DNA from: a virus
IMG/VR virus record: IMGVR_UViG_3300025687_000257
Span: 1 to 27,224 of that record
DNA: 27,224 nt
Direction: 5' to 3' (one strand)
Part shown: positions 85 through 12,615 of the stretch, in pieces
How positions within the stretch are numbered: position 1 is the first letter of the stretch
Layout of the letters: each line of letters begins with the position of its first letter
Notes under the pieces: model-generated
What the model was told of the DNA's origin: nothing
Seen by the model: only the letters and a program-made list of their open reading frames with translations
Databases searched by the model: none
Translations under genes and position numbers: made by a program

Positions 85-699
85 TCACCAAAGTTGTTGT
101 TGTTGTTGATGTGTTTCCAATCTTTTTTTTGCACTGGTGTAATAGTCCACATCTAGTTCCCATGCATCCAAAGAGAATCCCATATCATGGCATGCTATGG
201 CAATGGAACCACTGCCAAGATGTGTATCCAATATCTTGTCATCTTCTTTGGCAAAGTGTTCTAGTATCCATATATAGAGTGCAGTTGGCTTTTGTGTTGG
301 ATGTATTTTGTCACCTGTTCTGTTATCAAATTTGAATAGTTTTGCTGGATATGGAAATGATGTCCATGCCATTTCCCACTGCGAAAAGTTTGGCCATGGT
401 TGGCACTTATCCCAACATACTACGCATCTTGTGGATGGTAGTGTGAAATAGTTTGCACCCCATATCACTTGATTTTTTGAAACTCTGAAAAGGTGATCAA
501 AGTATTCTTGTGGTGGTGATATATCCCAATGTTCATACTTACCACGGCAGAACGCACGATCTTTGAGTTTACCTTTTCCACCTGTTTGTGCACCATGTTT
601 GTGGATGTCATAAGGAGGATCAACAATCGCTAAATCATAACATTTATCTGGCATCTGTCGCATTGCTTCTAGGCAATCACCCAAGTGTAGATTTATCAT
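85..699 (-). CDS. DNA methyltransferase, N6-adenine/N4-cytosine type (orphan)
   Basis: This 204-residue protein is a SAM-dependent amino-methyltransferase that would methylate adenine N6 or cytosine N4 in DNA. The catalytic motif DPPY is at residues 27-30, and VIWGANYF follows at 78-85. HPTQKP is at 133-138, and the SAM-binding motif is DTHLGSGS at 158-165. The catalytic motif precedes the SAM motif, the beta-class order. The usual Phe of motif I (FxGxG) is Leu here. The C-terminus ends in a run of five Gln encoded by a CAA repeat. The start at 699 follows a GAAGTGA ribosome binding site and lies three bases after the stop of the ribbon-helix-helix gene, so the two are probably co-transcribed. 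No restriction endonuclease is adjacent, so I infer an orphan enzyme for self-protection or regulation. The target site cannot be read from sequence. Confidence 0.9.
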   Translation of the reverse strand: MINLHLGDCLEAMRQMPDKCYDLAIVDPPYDIHKHGAQTGGKGKLKDRAFCRGKYEHWDISPPQEYFDHLFRVSKNQVIWGANYFTLPSTRCVVCWDKCQPWPNFSQWEMAWTSFPYPAKLFKFDNRTGDKIHPTQKPTALYIWILEHFAKEDDKILDTHLGSGSIAIACHDMGFSLDAWELDVDYYTSAKKRLETHQQQQQLW

Positions 700-931: not shown

Positions 932-1870
932 TTATTCATCATCACTGTCTATTTCTTGTGTGTAGTCCATCGATGGATATAGTGTGGCCAAATCTCTATG
1001 CTCAACATTTGGTGACAGAAAACCTGTCATAGCCTGTGCCATGCTTTGTGGTGTCGGTACATACGGACTATCTTTCAATGCTTTGGCCGTGCATCTTTTC
1101 ATTCTGTAGTATTTCACTGCATTGTTGTATGCTTGGTTTTCAGTGATAACATTCAATAGTTCTTCTGGCATCGTCCAACCTTCATCAGCACAAATTTGGA
1201 TTCCGATAAACGTCTTGTATATTGGGTGTTTGAAATTTGGAATGTATTCCCCTGTGCCTTCATTGTATATGCAACGGCCTGCCTTGATTCTATCGTGCCA
1301 TTTCTTTTCACTTTGTTCTTTTGCACTGACAAGATAGTGTCTGTGGTTTCTGTAACTGTAGTGTATTTCTGCATTCTTGAAACGAACTTGCAAGTTGGAT
1401 ATCACAGTAGTATACGGATAACCTTTCATACATTTCCCTGCATCACACGTGCATGGTGCCATGTATTCGGTTTCCTTATCTGTGGTTCGATCCCACATAT
1501 ATATCTGTCTGAATCCACCTTCCAATCCATCTGCATCTGTGCGACAATCATTGCAGAACTTCTTGCCATTGGTGAAATCGCGTCTTTCCCAACGGTCTTG
1601 ATAGCCTGGCTTTGCACGTAAATATTCTGTCACTTGTGGCAATGTTGGCAAGAATGTGTGCATATCGTTCATCAAGTAATAGTGCAAGGTTTCTTTGAGC
1701 CAAGTAGAATCAAACCGTTCATACTTTGTGCAATAAAGTGAATGTTGGGCCTTAAGCCAGAACATGCTTTTGCCAAAGTGATCAGAAAGGTTTGATAGGA
1801 ACTTGAACAGAATCTTTTCTTTTGGAGAGTTGACCCATTCTGGATATGTTGTTGTATTATTTGTGGACAT
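932..1870 (-). CDS. 312-residue protein with a Cys cluster, possible replication or helicase-loader protein
   Basis: I do not recognise this protein with certainty. It is soluble, rich in aromatic and basic residues, and has no membrane segment. A possible zinc site is visible: C106 and C109 (CNDC), then C140, C142 and C147 (CTCDAGKC), separated by about 30 residues. A similar arrangement (CxxC, a loop, then CxC) is seen in some phage helicase-loader and replication accessory proteins, which is the basis for the tentative call. No Walker A motif is seen. The C-terminus is acidic. The start at 1870 has an AAGGAGT site at good spacing. It follows the 66-residue gene after four bases, and both lie next to the iteron region, which fits a replication role. 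The function is inference from position. Confidence 0.85.
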   Translation of the reverse strand: MSTNNTTTYPEWVNSPKEKILFKFLSNLSDHFGKSMFWLKAQHSLYCTKYERFDSTWLKETLHYYLMNDMHTFLPTLPQVTEYLRAKPGYQDRWERRDFTNGKKFCNDCRTDADGLEGGFRQIYMWDRTTDKETEYMAPCTCDAGKCMKGYPYTTVISNLQVRFKNAEIHYSYRNHRHYLVSAKEQSEKKWHDRIKAGRCIYNEGTGEYIPNFKHPIYKTFIGIQICADEGWTMPEELLNVITENQAYNNAVKYYRMKRCTAKALKDSPYVPTPQSMAQAMTGFLSPNVEHRDLATLYPSMDYTQEIDSDDE

Positions 1871-1874
1871 GTTG

Positions 1875-2075
1875 TTACTCCTTGTTTATTATGGTTTTGA
1901 TTTCAGTTTGTAAGTTGCGCAACATCTTATATGATGCATTGTGTTTCTTGGATATGGCCAAGAGTGAATAAGTTTGTTTGGTGATCTCCAACAAGTAGAG
2001 CTCACACCACAGAAGAACCTTTTGGCCATCACCAGTATCTATGATGTGTTTTGGTACGATTGCATAATGTTTCAT
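1875..2075 (-). CDS. 66-residue protein, possible small HTH DNA-binding protein
   Basis: The start at 2075 is chosen because AGGAT precedes it; an upstream extension to 2114 would run through the promoter repeat. After a short beta-like N-terminus, residues about 19-62 form two or three amphipathic helices (KVLLWCELYLLEI, then SLLAISKKHNASYKMLRNLQ). The spacing resembles a winged-helix or HTH domain of the kind found at the N-terminus of phage replication initiators, but no diagnostic residue fixes this. It is the gene nearest the iteron clusters on the leftward side. It could be a split-off initiator domain acting with the 312-residue protein, or a regulator. Confidence 0.7.
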   Translation of the reverse strand: MKHYAIVPKHIIDTGDGQKVLLWCELYLLEITKQTYSLLAISKKHNASYKMLRNLQTEIKTIINKE

Positions 2076-2083
2076 GATATATC

Positions 2084-2112
2084 CTATGTATACTATGTAA
2101 TACAATATATAC
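2084..2112. repeat. 29-bp promoter-region repeat, copy 1 (near-identical to 2524-2552)
   Basis: This 29-bp stretch matches 2524-2552 with a single mismatch (C at 2093 versus T at 2533). It contains the operator-like word GTATACTATG (2088-2097). It lies directly before the leftward 66-residue gene, whereas copy 2 lies in the promoter of the rightward operon, so both have the same orientation on the plus strand although the genes diverge. Confidence 0.8.
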
Positions 2113-2121
2113 ACATAACAA
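2094..2121 (-). promoter_or_regulatory. candidate leftward promoter for the 66-residue/312-residue genes
   Basis: Read leftward, TTGTTA (2121-2116) is followed after 16 bases by TACATA (2099-2094). The match is fair rather than strong. The predicted leader before the AGGAT site and the ATG at 2075 is very short. The box overlaps the 29-bp repeat, so binding there would block it. Confidence 0.35.
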
Positions 2122-2280
2122 ATCAGAAAGCAAATTTATAATGAAAATATTTTGTGGAGAGATAGCAGCAGCCAAGTTTTCATTCTCCATGATATTGTGG
2201 CATCTTTTTTCTTGCTAGAAATGCTTTGCGTTTTAGTGCATGGATATTTCTTCATGCATCTGTCTACTGACTGTCTCCCT

Positions 2281-2312
2281 AAAATTTATTAATTATAATA
2301 ATATTTATAATA
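2281..2312. other. 32-bp pure A/T block, candidate DNA-unwinding element
   Basis: Every base from 2281 to 2312 is A or T. It lies 42 bp before the first iteron cluster, the usual position of the melting element beside initiator sites in theta origins. Confidence 0.5.
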
Positions 2313-2354
2313 GGCAGCTCACGTTCCCCACAGTTAGAATATTGTAGAGTGGTG

Positions 2355-2398
2355 TTTGCCCTTGATTTGCCCTTGATTTGCCCTTGATTTGCCCTTGC
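2355..2398. repeat. iteron cluster 1: four 11-bp direct repeats
   Basis: TTTGCCCTTGA is repeated head to tail at 2355-2365, 2366-2376 and 2377-2387, with a fourth copy at 2388-2398 whose last base is C. The 11-bp period places each copy on about the same face of the helix, as in initiator-binding iterons. Confidence 0.85.
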
Positions 2399-2441
2399 AA
2401 GAAAATGAAGCCCGTGTACATCGGAAATGTAATGCTGTTGA

Positions 2442-2482
2442 TTTGCCCTTGATTTGCCCTTGATTTGCCCTTGATTTGCCCC
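2442..2482. repeat. iteron cluster 2: three full and one partial 11-bp repeat
   Basis: The same unit TTTGCCCTTGA occurs at 2442-2452, 2453-2463 and 2464-2474, followed by a truncated copy TTTGCCCC at 2475-2482. The cluster starts 87 bp after the start of cluster 1, close to eight repeat lengths, so both clusters are nearly in helical phase. Forty-three bases of unique sequence separate them. Confidence 0.85.
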
Positions 2483-2517: not shown

Positions 2518-2546
2518 TTGACACTATGTATATTATGTAATACAAT
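2518..2546 (+). promoter_or_regulatory. strong sigma-70 promoter for the plus-strand operon
   Basis: TTGACA (2518-2523), a 17-bp spacer and TACAAT (2541-2546) make a near-consensus promoter. Transcription should start near 2553, giving a leader of about 30 bases before the ATG at 2584. The spacer and -10 are the second copy of the 29-bp repeat (2524-2552), including the operator-like word, so the promoter is probably repressible. Confidence 0.8.
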
Positions 2547-5706: not shown

Positions 5707-8700
5707 TTATTCTTCTTCTTCTGCTCTTTTCTTTGCTTCTTCTGTCTTACCCAACTGTGATTCCAGTTCTTTTATCCTGGATTCCATTGCACGTTTTCTT
5801 GTCATCAACAATGAACGTTCAAGTTTGGTGCCTGTTTGTATTGATACTGGCCGTGTCAAACCTAGCACACGTTCTGGTGTAGTTTGATATGCTGTCTTTC
5901 CTTCTTCAGCTCCAAATGCTATCTTGCTCCATTCAATGATTGGTGCATCAATACCACTTACTGCCAATACTTTTCTTCCCCACACAATACGTTCCCGTTG
6001 TTTTTCCACTATTGGATATACATAACCATTCACGGCACCATCTTCTGGAGTTCCTTGCAACGGATATATTTCACCACCAAGAATATATTGGAGTACACCA
6101 GCAGTGGCAGTAGGATCACCACCAGTAAACATACCCACTGCATTCACATATTCCACAGGTACATTCTTACCAGAGTATTCAAACAAGTTTGGCATTTCAA
6201 GTATGTTCTTCAATCCTGGAGATACAAATCCTGTAAGTGTTCTTTTGTATCCTGTGGGTTCTTCTCCCCTTGCTACTGACACCAAATCTTCTGCCAAACC
6301 AAATACTTGCACCATTGCCCCAAGTGCTGGTATTGGTGGACTCATCATGTAGTAGTCTCTTGTTTCACCTTTGGTCAAGTTCACTGCAATCTTTTCTAGT
6401 GCCATCGGATGTGCGTATAACTTTTCATATATTGGCCTATTTCCACTTTCTTCATCCATTGCCATAAGAAATGTTTCTACACCCCTTTGAAATTTCAACT
6501 GCTCTACATATCGTTTGAAAATTTGTAGGTCTGTGAATGCACGTGAGAACATAGCCCAGTTAGCGCGTGAAAAGGAATAGAACATCAATAGATTTGTGGC
6601 AACTGTCTTTTCTGCTGAACTCATATCGGAGTAGTCGAACATTGAACGTTTGGCCAACTGCACTGCTTCTTCTGCACTGAAACCTTTGGCCAAAGAATCA
6701 TAGAACACATTTGTTCTGAAGATCAAATCTTCTTTCAAGGTCAAATCTTGTACAAAGAACTCACCAAGGAAACCCAATGTATTCTTGCTTTTGGCAGATA
6801 GTGTTGTGCCTGTTCTGCGTTTCAAGAAGTTGATCAATGAATCATTGGATATGGCACTAGTAACAAAGTTGATTTCACTTCTGATACCACTGCTTTGCAA
6901 TAGTTCGTATACTTCACCATACGTGTACGGTTTTCCACTTCTGTCCACAATGGCAATCATGTTGTAATATGGTGACGATGGACTATCACACAACATGGTT
7001 CTGAAACTGTTGCCAGTTGGTTGTACCATCTGTTGCAAGTTCTTACCATATAGGTTCTTCACATCTTGCCATTTTGGCACCTTGCCTGCTTTGATGGTGT
7101 CTATCATAGTCTTACCAAGCACAAGTGCTTGTTGGCCAACATATGCAACTGTGCTTGTTGCAACACCAGTGGAGAGATTTCCAACAGTAGCATAGGACAT
7201 GGATGATCCTGTCAATATGTTACCAGTGTGGAAATACACACGTGCACCAAGTAACATCGAATATCGATACGCACCAGTAACCATATTCAACAACATTGTT
7301 ACTGCTTTGCTTGTTGTTTTCCATCCAGGTTTTGTTGCTTCTTTTCGGAGATAACTATTTATACTTTGTGTCAATCCACTTACTCTAGCATCAGTGAGTG
7401 CTTTCTTCATTTCATCATAGGAGCTACCCATGATACCTTTCATGATACGTTCATTTGTAGCACCAAACACATCATCCAACATTCTGTTCACATCGTTTAT
7501 ATCTGCAATGCTACCAACATCCAAACCATTCTTGCGCATCAATACTTCACTGTATTCTTGTACTTTGGTCAAGTATTCTGCAATATCACTTTTGCCTTTT
7601 ATAGTGCTATCTTGTATCAGTTCTTCCAATGCTTGGCTTGTACTAACACGCCATGCATCCATATCCATAGAAGCACTGCCAAGTCTTGTACCAACATAAC
7701 TGCGCATGTGTTGGCCAATCACATCATTTGTAACTTCTGGTCTGAGTCTCATTTCCGGAAATACATCCAACTTCACCAAATCTTGTTCTACTGCACGGAT
7801 AGCATTCCTTGCCACAATCCTATCGCCTTCTGCCCAATAGTACATACCTGTCATGAAGTTCAAACGTATTTCTTCTGCTGCGGCCATATCCAACATGGTG
7901 ATACTCTTGGTGTTGCCACCAATCACGTTTTCTGGTCTTCGCACAATGGCACCCATCTCACCAACCAATGTGTTCAAGTGTTCCCAAAGTTGCTTTGGGT
8001 TTGCATACACTTTGATTGCAAATGCATCCAACTTGGCATTCAATAGTGCTTGTCCTTTGGGTGTGAGTATATCAGATTTGTATGTAAGGTTATCACCACC
8101 AGCACGCAACAGACTACTGTTCAAGTCTGCTTTCTCTCCAACACGCACAAACAATCTATCAATGGCCCATGCTCCAACACGTCTTACACGTGCCATGCTA
8201 TCACCACGGAAAGACGTGGTGCCTTGTATAACATCTTCAAACGATTGGCCCACAGTAGATACTGGACGTGGTGCCTTTGCTTGTGCTTCCAATGCTTGTA
8301 TCTGTTCTTTGGTGGTTTCTGTTAGTGCTTGTGATTCTTCTTTGAATGTTTGCTTGGCCAAATCCTTTTGTGATTTGGTTCTAGATGTCAGTGCATCGAT
8401 GGTATCTTTTGTTGCTTGCTTTTGTTGTTGTATCAATGCTTGCTTTTCTGCTTTGATACGTTGTTCTTCAATCGTGGCCAACTGTTTGGTGGCTTTCATA
8501 TCCTTTTCAAATTTATCTTTTACTGCTTGCAGCTTCTTCTTGTTGGTATCAATAGCAACTTTTTTGCGTTCTTCCAGGAACTTGGTTTTGTTATTCTTGA
8601 TATCCATACGGAGTTCATCGATGTGTGATTTGGTCTTTTTAGTATCCCAACCAAGATAACCAGGTCTTGAACGTGCTTGCAAATCTGCTAACTGATTTCT

Positions 8701-11700
8701 TGTGAAATAATCATCGGTACCCAACTTGATATCTTCAATAGAAGAATCCAATATATCCAGAACTGTTCTTGGTTCTGTTTTGGCCTCTAGTTGTATGGTG
8801 GCTTGTTCTGCCAATCCACCAAGTTTGGCTATAGTCTTATCCCAATCTGATTCTATTCCAGCCAACTCACTATCTAACTGCTCACGTATGGCCAACTGTT
8901 CTTCTTTGTATCGTGCTTCGTATGCTCTCAAATCGTCTGTGGCCTGTTGTTTGGTTTTCTCCACAAACTTGTTGGCATCTGCTTCTATCTGCTGAATCTG
9001 TTTCTTTGCTCTTTTCTCCAGAAGTGCAATACGTTCACCACTTGCTTTCTTATAGTCTATTATCTTCTGTGTGGTTTGTTTCTTTATTTCTTTTACTTCT
9101 TCTGCTGTCTTACCACGAACTTCTTTTTGGTAATCTTCACGAATCTTGCGCAGTGCTTTTTGGTCTGCATCCAGTGCATCATTCAAGTCTTTCACACTGT
9201 CAGTATATGTTTTGCGCAGTATTGCACGTCTTTCCACTGCACGTTCTCTGATTGCCTGTTTCAATCCTGGTAATGTATCTTGCATAGAACGCATGGTGTC
9301 ATCATATTCTTTGTCTAACTTGGCTTGGTCACTCAATCGTTCTTCCAATGCTTTCAACGTTCTGTCAACATCTGCAATGGTATCTGCTCTTTCGCCGACA
9401 ATAGATACTGCAAGTGCATCGATGGAGTTCATTGGTGTTTGTGGATCATCCACAAATCTTGCACGGTATTCTGCACTACCCATCAAACCACTGACTTCAC
9501 GGCGCAACTTGTTATCCATCGTGGATGCTTCTTGTGCAGTGTCCTTTATCAATCGTCTTTGTTGCAATGTTCCACCAGCAGTTTCAGGAACTACTTCTGT
9601 CCAAGCTCCAAGTGCTTTCTTTCCACGTGTTTGCACGAAGTCAATACCTGCTTTGATAGGGTCTTGGAATGAACGAAACCCACCCGCTTCCATCCACTTC
9701 TGTTGTTGCTTTGTGGAGAGGTGCGAAATATCTTTCGCACTTATGATATCACGTTGTAAGGTAGCAGCAGCAGAATCCAAATTTTGATCGATCAGATAGC
9801 GCAAATCATCAATGGCCAATCTTCCTGTGGTCACATCATTTTGTATCTTGGCCAAGTATTCTGTGTTGCTGGCAGTACGTGGAATGCTAGCAACATAACT
9901 TTGCAACTCTGTTGCTTCTGATGCATCTAACTTGTAGAACTCCATTTGTTCCAATGGTTGCACCAAAGTCTTTTCACCAAACTGCACAGTTCTTGGTGTA
10001 GAACTTATTGGTTCTACAACAAGTTCACCACGTTTTACGATGGAATGCAGTGTTGGTGCTACTCCACTTTCACTTGCACGTTTCAATATATCTGGTATCT
10101 TGGATTCATGTGCGAATGTATTCTTGGTGATGGCCCGAAAGTTTTCCATCGCTTTCAACTCTGGAACCACTTGGATAACCAATCCACGTGCAAATGCAGT
10201 ATTCACGGCATCTTTGATTTGGCCTATTTTTTCCAAATCAGTAAAACTATTTATTGGTGCATCAACTTTGATACCATAGTACTGTTCTAACTTTTCCACC
10301 AATCGAACATCTGTGCCAACAGTTTTGGTGCCTGTTTCCAAGAAGTCTTTGGTGGCCATCCAATCATCATACGTCTTTTCAAATTCTGCAACCTGGTCTG
10401 CTTTCAACAGTTTATTGTTTTGCAGCTGTTGCACCAACTGTTCTTTGGTTGGTATTCCACGGCCTTCACCTGTCATAGAGAAATGTTTGCTTGCTTCTGT
10501 ATTTTGCAAACCTTTCTTTTCAAGTTCAGTATAGGCATCTAACCCAAATTTGTTTGCATCTTGTATAGTCTGTTCTGCCACAAGTTCATCAGCAAATTTG
10601 TTTGTCACCAATGCACGCACATCCCCAGGATCAACCATCGTTCTCCACTTCTTTGCAGTTTGTGGTGATAGTCCAGTGATGATATTGGAATCTTTGTAGA
10701 ACCCATATGCAAATCCATCTTTGGCAGATTTCCAAAGTGATTCACTCTTGGCCAATGTTTGATTTGGTGCAAGCATTGCAGTGGATATGGCACGTGCTTG
10801 CTTCTGTGCTTTGATATTTTTGAATGCTCCATATGCACCACTACCAATACCGAAAGATGGTTCAATGAAATCACCCAACAATGAACCTGTCAAGTGTGTG
10901 GTTTTCTGCCATCCTTCCAAACCTATTTGGTCGGATATCTCTTTGGCTTCTCCTATCACACCTTTGTTCAATGCTATGTTTGCAAGTACTGGTGAATCAC
11001 CATATAGTGCTTGGTGTTCTTTTCTGTACTGCTCACGTTCTTTGGATATATCGTATACATCATCACTGAATGCAGAAGCAATGGTACCCATGATAGGGTC
11101 ATTCACGTAATGAACATAACCACCAGATATAACATTCGGAACTGTGAGCATAGAACGCATTGCCCAACCTGTAACGGTTTCAGCCTGTCCACCAAGTGGC
11201 CCTAACTCGGAGAGTATTCCACTTTCCACATACTGTTCTGGATTTGCAGTTATTTGTTGTGTTTTGGTAGGGTCATATATCCAACTATCTGGATTCCCAA
11301 TCACTTGTTTTGCACGTATCTTTGCAATGGTATCAGCATCTTGTGTAGATGGTTTGGCAGTGTCTGCACCCATAACCATCATTTTCAAGTTATCCACACT
11401 GATGAAATGTGAAGGGTCAGAACTCCAACGTTTCACGTTTTCATCGAACTGTTGTGATACGATTGGTGGATTCACTAGCAGATTGTTGTTCAAGATAGCA
11501 TTCCAAATTTCCATTGGTATTGCCATCTTTTCAGGGTCAGTCATTTGTTGTTTTGGAGTCCGTTCACCTTTGGCATAAAAGAATGCTGGTTCTACATACA
11601 TCACAGGAACTTGTTCTTTTGCTATGCTAGGTTTGTTTTCATCAACATAGTCATTGATAGCCTGTTGCATCTGTGCTTTTCTGTATTCTGCTTGTATCGG

Positions 11701-12615
11701 TGTAAGTTGTTTGAATGGTTTCCCCAAATCAACTTGACGTTGGAATGCTTGCACAGTTGGGTCTTGTGGCCCACCTTCTGGTGCCAAAGATTCCGGTTTC
11801 AATGTTGCAGGGTCAATGATTGGTTGTTGATCAATCACGGCCAAATCTTCCAATACAAGTTTGAGTGCATCCACTTCGGATAGATATGGTTTGCCTACAC
11901 GTGCAGATTGTACTGCCGTCATGATAGCAGTTAGTTCTTGTGTGGCCAACTTATCCAAATCACCTTCAACATTGTTATTTTGCAAATCTTGTTTGATAAC
12001 AGAGAGAAGTTGTGGTCTGTCTACTTCAATCTGTTCTTTGCTTTTTTGTGCAGTGATCTCTGGCACTACCTGTTGTTTTCCAAGTGCAGTGAAGATTGTT
12101 GGTGGTGCAACCTGTGATGTTTCAGCAGTGTATTGCACTGGTGGTGCAACACCAGTAATAGCAGCACCTTCTTTGGTTGGTTGGTATACACTACCAAAGC
12201 TTTCAAATGGAGCTTGCACACGAAGTGGAGTTACACCACCAGTGATATACTCTTTTGATACTTGGCCAAGTGCTTTCTTTTTGATTGACTCTGTATCAAT
12301 AGATTCTTCTGGTGTTCCACGGTCTTTCAAACTTTGTATTTCAACTTCTGCCGTCAAGTCTGCAAGCCTACCAACCAAAGATTGTTGGTATGATACATCA
12401 TCCACTTTCTCACCAGCCTGTTTCAACAGTTGGCCAAATGCATCAGTTCTGTAGAATGTCAATGGCACCATTGTTGCTTCTCCGTTTTGAGTTACAACAA
12501 TGTTTCCGAATGCATCACGTTTGATGGTTGGTGGTGTCATACCACCTTGAATTTGTGCCAACAGTTTGTTCAGTTCTTCTTCTGTGGTAATGGTTGGTGC
12601 ATCTGGCAAAGCCAT
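5707..12615 (-). CDS. giant (2302-residue) internal virion / DNA-ejection protein
   Basis: This is the largest gene, a quarter of the window. Residues 1-300 are Pro/Gln/Thr-rich and probably flexible. A long helical coiled coil rich in Lys, Glu and Gln spans about residues 1085-1445. The C-terminal third has a motif FDYSDMSSAEK (from residue 1993) followed by FYSFSRANWAMFSRAF. From memory this resembles a conserved stretch in large phage virion proteins carrying LPD38-type domains of the polyvalent-protein group. The C-terminus is a charged helix ending in EEEE. It lies after two Gln-rich genes, as the third of an ejection-protein trio comparable in place to T7 gp14-gp15-gp16. I see no lysozyme or transglycosylase motif. 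Its likely role is to leave the head with the DNA and help cross the envelope. The start at 12615 has AGGAGA upstream. Confidence 0.9.
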   Translation of the reverse strand: MALPDAPTITTEEELNKLLAQIQGGMTPPTIKRDAFGNIVVTQNGEATMVPLTFYRTDAFGQLLKQAGEKVDDVSYQQSLVGRLADLTAEVEIQSLKDRGTPEESIDTESIKKKALGQVSKEYITGGVTPLRVQAPFESFGSVYQPTKEGAAITGVAPPVQYTAETSQVAPPTIFTALGKQQVVPEITAQKSKEQIEVDRPQLLSVIKQDLQNNNVEGDLDKLATQELTAIMTAVQSARVGKPYLSEVDALKLVLEDLAVIDQQPIIDPATLKPESLAPEGGPQDPTVQAFQRQVDLGKPFKQLTPIQAEYRKAQMQQAINDYVDENKPSIAKEQVPVMYVEPAFFYAKGERTPKQQMTDPEKMAIPMEIWNAILNNNLLVNPPIVSQQFDENVKRWSSDPSHFISVDNLKMMVMGADTAKPSTQDADTIAKIRAKQVIGNPDSWIYDPTKTQQITANPEQYVESGILSELGPLGGQAETVTGWAMRSMLTVPNVISGGYVHYVNDPIMGTIASAFSDDVYDISKEREQYRKEHQALYGDSPVLANIALNKGVIGEAKEISDQIGLEGWQKTTHLTGSLLGDFIEPSFGIGSGAYGAFKNIKAQKQARAISTAMLAPNQTLAKSESLWKSAKDGFAYGFYKDSNIITGLSPQTAKKWRTMVDPGDVRALVTNKFADELVAEQTIQDANKFGLDAYTELEKKGLQNTEASKHFSMTGEGRGIPTKEQLVQQLQNNKLLKADQVAEFEKTYDDWMATKDFLETGTKTVGTDVRLVEKLEQYYGIKVDAPINSFTDLEKIGQIKDAVNTAFARGLVIQVVPELKAMENFRAITKNTFAHESKIPDILKRASESGVAPTLHSIVKRGELVVEPISSTPRTVQFGEKTLVQPLEQMEFYKLDASEATELQSYVASIPRTASNTEYLAKIQNDVTTGRLAIDDLRYLIDQNLDSAAATLQRDIISAKDISHLSTKQQQKWMEAGGFRSFQDPIKAGIDFVQTRGKKALGAWTEVVPETAGGTLQQRRLIKDTAQEASTMDNKLRREVSGLMGSAEYRARFVDDPQTPMNSIDALAVSIVGERADTIADVDRTLKALEERLSDQAKLDKEYDDTMRSMQDTLPGLKQAIRERAVERRAILRKTYTDSVKDLNDALDADQKALRKIREDYQKEVRGKTAEEVKEIKKQTTQKIIDYKKASGERIALLEKRAKKQIQQIEADANKFVEKTKQQATDDLRAYEARYKEEQLAIREQLDSELAGIESDWDKTIAKLGGLAEQATIQLEAKTEPRTVLDILDSSIEDIKLGTDDYFTRNQLADLQARSRPGYLGWDTKKTKSHIDELRMDIKNNKTKFLEERKKVAIDTNKKKLQAVKDKFEKDMKATKQLATIEEQRIKAEKQALIQQQKQATKDTIDALTSRTKSQKDLAKQTFKEESQALTETTKEQIQALEAQAKAPRPVSTVGQSFEDVIQGTTSFRGDSMARVRRVGAWAIDRLFVRVGEKADLNSSLLRAGGDNLTYKSDILTPKGQALLNAKLDAFAIKVYANPKQLWEHLNTLVGEMGAIVRRPENVIGGNTKSITMLDMAAAEEIRLNFMTGMYYWAEGDRIVARNAIRAVEQDLVKLDVFPEMRLRPEVTNDVIGQHMRSYVGTRLGSASMDMDAWRVSTSQALEELIQDSTIKGKSDIAEYLTKVQEYSEVLMRKNGLDVGSIADINDVNRMLDDVFGATNERIMKGIMGSSYDEMKKALTDARVSGLTQSINSYLRKEATKPGWKTTSKAVTMLLNMVTGAYRYSMLLGARVYFHTGNILTGSSMSYATVGNLSTGVATSTVAYVGQQALVLGKTMIDTIKAGKVPKWQDVKNLYGKNLQQMVQPTGNSFRTMLCDSPSSPYYNMIAIVDRSGKPYTYGEVYELLQSSGIRSEINFVTSAISNDSLINFLKRRTGTTLSAKSKNTLGFLGEFFVQDLTLKEDLIFRTNVFYDSLAKGFSAEEAVQLAKRSMFDYSDMSSAEKTVATNLLMFYSFSRANWAMFSRAFTDLQIFKRYVEQLKFQRGVETFLMAMDEESGNRPIYEKLYAHPMALEKIAVNLTKGETRDYYMMSPPIPALGAMVQVFGLAEDLVSVARGEEPTGYKRTLTGFVSPGLKNILEMPNLFEYSGKNVPVEYVNAVGMFTGGDPTATAGVLQYILGGEIYPLQGTPEDGAVNGYVYPIVEKQRERIVWGRKVLAVSGIDAPIIEWSKIAFGAEEGKTAYQTTPERVLGLTRPVSIQTGTKLERSLLMTRKRAMESRIKELESQLGKTEEAKKRAEEEE

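Follow-up and report, generated by a model that had tools for sequence, protein, structure and literature searches.

A likely iteron-type replication origin in a phage genome fragment, with GGGCAA boxes lying outside the initiator gene

The window studied here, a 27,224-base virus fragment, contains an intergenic array of GGGCAA boxes at 11-bp pitch that is likely to be an iteron replication origin. Our overall reading, which we consider fairly probable, is that this origin works by the logic of phage O proteins, with the array read by a 66-residue protein encoded beside it and the helicase brought in via a 312-residue protein. The reading builds on the array itself, its constancy in relatives, a correlation between box and recognition helix in homologous phage initiators, and the presence of the helix motif in the 66-residue protein. 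O-type origins with 11-bp iterons are known; what is likely to be new is the position of the array outside the initiator gene, with a small separate protein as its reader.

Six exact copies of TTTGCCCTTGA are present (starting at 2355, 2366, 2377, 2442, 2453 and 2464), together with one copy at 2388 whose last base is mismatched and one at 2475 that is cut short, all within 2355-2482. A first-pass annotation had counted seven full copies and one partial copy in two clusters; the clusters stand, but only six of the copies are exact, a seventh being near-exact and the eighth partial. All eight copies retain the full core TTGCCC, or GGGCAA when read on the minus strand (2356-2394 and 2443-2481), and the strand that carries GGGCAA runs in the direction of the genes downstream of the array. 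There are exactly eight GGGCAA boxes, four in each of two blocks, with an 11-bp pitch within each block, the bases ATCAA between boxes, and 87 bp from block to block. This compares with the three or more tandem phased binding repeats expected of an iteron origin. Four cores at 11-bp spacing were found in 0 of 100 dinucleotide-preserving shuffles with 3 mismatches permitted. The idea that the two blocks are almost in helical phase fails, since 87 bp makes ~8.3 helical turns of 10.5 bp each, which places them ~100 degrees out. The region is the long non-coding one described earlier: no other stretch between convincing genes in the window is as long.

The 312-residue product has two relatives in IMG/VR (L007 and L008; 71% identical, 67-68% over the best segment), which are nearly identical to each other, so that the pair counts for little more than one comparison. 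Their matches to window proteins are the 66-residue, 312-residue and (differently placed) SWIM-domain proteins and no others, and their structural genes resemble another phage type, unrelated to that of the window. Thus, the replication segment has been transferred between phages. Both relatives keep 4+4 GGGCAA boxes with the blocks 86 bp apart (distal block at L007:9003-9041 and L008:5518-5556, proximal block at L007:9089-9127), and in both the last box is followed after 43 bp by the A/T run and then by the 66- and 312-residue genes, as in the window. Conservation of the array in related phages, which the first-pass annotation had proposed looking for, is therefore seen in this pair. The bases between the boxes are mostly CGCAG or CAGAG in the relatives, compared to ATCAA in the window; conservation thus applies to the boxes and their pitch. 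Alignment of the window with the relatives contains 4-bp and 1-bp gaps that rule out a shared reading frame. The array is therefore not coding, as the earlier placing of the iterons between genes implied, and we rejected the possibility that it is part of a gene.

Both in the window and in L007, 43 bp separate the last GGGCAA box from the start of a pure A/T run, whose CCTATTATAAATAT..TATAATT pattern was found only in the window phage and its relatives. The run was indeed noticed before, as a block of 32 bp; its length is 33 bp (2280-2312). It thus provides the conserved A/T-rich tract beside the repeats that is expected of an iteron origin. The conserved non-coding block (Table 1) had no match in Rfam, and the strand past the array showed nothing unusual in its folding (z -1.3), so that the hairpins reported beside the array are not notable. 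With few supporting pairs in addition, a structured RNA in this block was rejected. The 17-mer GATGCCACAATATCATG was also rejected as a marker of the family; its other matches (L066-L069) resemble unrelated coding DNA. The GC skew had been predicted to turn near 2.3-2.5 kb and shows no extremum there; it lends the origin no support, although skew is uninformative in a fragment such as this record.

Table 1. Features of the proposed origin and its surroundings in the window
Feature	Position	Strand	Detail
Distal iteron block	2443..2481	-	GGGCAA at 2476-2481, 2465-2470, 2454-2459, 2443-2448
Proximal iteron block	2356..2394	-	GGGCAA at 2389-2394, 2378-2383, 2367-2372, 2356-2361
Inter-block spacer, 48 bp	2395..2442	.	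sequence poorly conserved, length nearly fixed (47 bp in relatives)
Pure A/T run, 33 bp, proposed unwinding element	2280..2312	-	CCTATTATAAATAT..TATAATT conserved
Conserved non-coding block	2188..2251	-	AGAAATATCCATGCACTAAAACGCAAAGC ... GATGCCACAATATCATG; alignment with relatives
66-residue helix-turn-helix protein, proposed iteron-binding initiator	1875..2075	-	recognition helix starting S48-Y49-K50-M51-L52-R53
312-residue protein, proposed helicase loader or second initiator subunit	932..1870	-	same operon as 66-residue gene, 4-bp gap
Sigma-70-type promoter of the rightward SWIM-domain gene	2518..2546	+	TTGACA-17-TACAAT, 11/12 positions
34-bp operator-like repeat, before 66-residue gene	2084..2117	.	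copy at 2524-2557 (94% identical); related sequence near 880-910

A search of 2.9 million viral contigs for the array pattern (GGGCAA N5)x4 returned 57 stretches, compared to 6 for a reversed-box control. Most of the 57 lie inside genes for O/DnaD-like initiators with GGGCAA on the coding strand. These in-gene arrays directly follow the winged-helix domain, are themselves followed by A-rich DNA, and are far from promoters. Two representatives of the genes match PHROGs named DnaD-like helicase loader, O-like replication initiation and replisome organizer, and their winged-helix domain is related to the O proteins of HK022, HK620, Sf6 and ST64T. The same in-gene place, with 11-bp repeats, is annotated as a putative origin in the Sf6 record, and the in-gene 11-bp repeats of phage L have been called a likely origin (PMC8022706). 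The O/DnaD-like initiator class commonly has GGGCAA at 11-bp pitch as its box, and this box goes with a specific recognition-helix motif that the 66-residue protein has, contrary to the suggestion that the binding rule may be new. Within a limited literature collection, we found no paper naming a GGGCAA iteron. The reading as an iteron origin appears well supported by the retention of the array across phages with unrelated structural genes and by the same boxes in O/DnaD-like genes elsewhere, and the first-pass proposal of an origin candidate at 2281-2482 is likely to be right.

In some contigs (L018 at 6875-6980, and also L025, L046, L050 and L054), a MuF-like head gene and a scaffold-like gene flank a 4+3 GGGCAA array whose blocks are 77 bp apart. 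Two of these contigs also have, at another place, an initiator of their own with TTKKVR and boxes inside its gene. It is possible that the intergenic 4+3 array is a second origin or a titration site.

Initiators were also gathered regardless of repeats, from 20 named phage loci and from phrog_2514 members in 597 genomes, and many of these have 11-bp in-gene repeats with differing boxes. Two or more GGGCA boxes accompanied a recognition helix that starts with [ST]xKxxR in 5/5 cases, and were found in 0/43 of the others (Fisher 5.8e-7). On a tree of the initiators, constructed with the helix columns left out and with the array-selected set added to the sample, there were 14 trait changes, and box and helix changed together in 7/7 well-supported independent pairs (p 0.016). 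The array-selected initiators have [ST]xKxxR throughout, with one exception (L059). Unseen data for a check came from two contigs in which a second GGGCAA array is intergenic, lying between structural genes; a search of each for an initiator revealed one of 251 residues with TTKKVR, encoded elsewhere in the contig. The statistical test covered the K rule only (K with GGGCA); by eye, R pairs with GAC.A, Q with AACCA and S with xGCAA. In L192 (2097-2135), an in-gene 11-bp array has the different box GGAACGGGGAT and the initiator helix is WSKQKVSR, which agrees with box and helix changing together.

The gene for the 66-residue protein adjoins the array on its downstream side and is encoded on the GGGCAA strand. 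The AF2 model of the protein is a confident helix-turn-helix (pLDDT 93.6). Its last helix begins SYKMLR, or SYKTCR in the relatives, where overall identity is 45% and S48, Y49, K50 and R53 are invariant. Profile comparison with the initiator helix-turn-helix gave E 0.0018 with a probability of 15% over 24 aligned residues, and the alignment spans exactly the stretch of the SYKMLR helix, which is suggestive of homology to O/DnaD-like initiators. Searches of PHROG, Pfam, PDB and viral folds named no family for this protein, and Foldseek returned only generic helix-turn-helix matches without a family. From the SxKxxR correlation and the confident fold, we infer that the 66-residue protein is the reader that binds the GGGCAA boxes.

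The 312-residue protein has invariant CxxC...CxC motifs. It had no relative in PHROG, Pfam, PDB, named phages, plasmids or genomes, its AF2 model was too poor for use, and no DNA-binding features were found in it by the searches. Its position points to a helicase loader, judging from gene order and the analogy with lambda O-P.

Divergent from the replication genes is a gene for a SWIM zinc-finger protein (Pfam PF04434; 2518-3069, plus strand), a weak relative of which (31% over 90 residues) occurs elsewhere in L007 and L008. The 34-bp repeat, TATGTATA[CT]TATGTAATACAATATATACA, is partly palindromic and stands in front of both the 66-residue gene and the SWIM gene, and a weaker version of it precedes a gene for a ribbon-helix-helix protein (703-867). 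The repeat resembles a repressor site common to these genes, and the ribbon-helix-helix protein may be the repressor. The leftward gene run ends with a short DNA N6/N4 methyltransferase of 204 residues (85-699, minus strand), which matches mainly the later part of larger families. A virion-type protein of 2302 residues is encoded at 5707-12615 on the minus strand. Gene order and sizes suggest that the window phage is short-tailed, in contrast to the two relatives with which it has the replication segment in common.

In the mechanism that we propose, the 66-residue protein would read the boxes via the helix beginning S-x-K-x-x-R and would fill the two four-box blocks, one box per 11 bp, bending the DNA. 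The strain would open the A/T run 43 bp away, and the 312-residue protein from the same operon would then recruit the replicative helicase. More broadly, the initiator may have been reduced to a free helix-turn-helix protein of 66 residues, with a separate helicase-loading partner and an origin that no longer lies within the initiator gene, and the iteron may be set by the third helix residue across O/DnaD-like initiators (K = GGGCA; R ~ GAC.A; Q ~ AACCA), in which case that residue would predict which phages share origin specificity. We judge this wider view to be as apt to fail as to hold.

Could the array be mainly an operator, through which the 66-residue protein controls its own operon and the divergent SWIM gene while replication starts elsewhere? 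It does lie between divergent genes with a strong promoter (2518-2546) alongside, and iteron binders often autoregulate. However, separate operator-like repeats are already present at both promoters, the relatives keep the A/T run at the same distance of 43 bp, and the same arrays occur elsewhere inside initiator genes, far from promoters, all of which make a mainly regulatory array unlikely. A genuine origin whose boxes are bound by the 312-residue protein, or by one from the host, is also quite improbable. Conservation is higher in the 312-residue protein than in the 66-residue protein (71% compared to 45%), but the SxKxxR correlation and the confident helix-turn-helix fold favour the 66-residue protein as the binder, and the searches gave no sign of DNA binding for the 312-residue protein.

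Plasmid R1 parC has 11-bp repeats in two blocks, a layout that the array resembles. As a partition site of this kind, it would need a ribbon-helix-helix protein as its binder, and the ribbon-helix-helix gene at 703-867, in the same leftward gene run, encodes a candidate. ParR/parC systems have a promoter between the repeat blocks and a partition ATPase in the operon, but no promoter-like site lies between the blocks here (2395-2442) and no actin-like or other partition ATPase was recognised among the flanking genes. In addition, the GGGCAA box goes with helix-turn-helix initiators and not with ribbon-helix-helix proteins, and we consider a partition site very improbable indeed.

Origin specificity has shifted repeatedly among phage initiators. 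How protein and repeats change in step has been difficult to test, since repeats located within the initiator gene, as they usually are, place constraints on it. In the window, array and initiator gene are unlinked, expression and crystallisation of the proposed 66-residue reader should be straightforward, and a single helix residue offers a testable switch of specificity.

Iteron plasmid origins, like the window, have intergenic direct repeats near the helical pitch beside an A/T-rich region. Plasmid iterons are replicon-specific, and the Rep proteins that read them are larger; no Rep family was recognised in the window. The lambda ori-O-P region shares with the window phased iterons by an A/T-rich tract, and an initiator and its partner in one operon. 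Lambda iterons are ~19-bp inverted repeats inside gene O (PMC5043065), whereas those of the window are 11-bp direct repeats. As the array is also intergenic, and not inside the initiator gene as in lambda O and phage L, we do not class it as a lambda-type origin proper. The O-like initiators gp18 of phage L/ST64T and gp43 of Sf6 likewise combine tandem 11-bp direct repeats, A-rich DNA after them and a wHTH initiator at a proposed origin. Their box is TGTCCAACGGA and their helix PDNKVK/R, compared to GGGCAA and SxKxxR in the window, and, unlike in the window, their repeats lie inside the gene of an initiator of ~300 residues that has its own C-terminal part. The O/DnaD-like initiators of PHROG 2514/186/7498 (for example in Cellulophaga phage phi18:3 and Vibrio phage 1.135.O) have the same GGGCAA box, 11-bp pitch, gene-relative strand and [ST]xKxxR helix start as the window; their array lies in the gene, usually as one block, whereas that of the window is a 4+4 intergenic array with a separate 66-residue protein.
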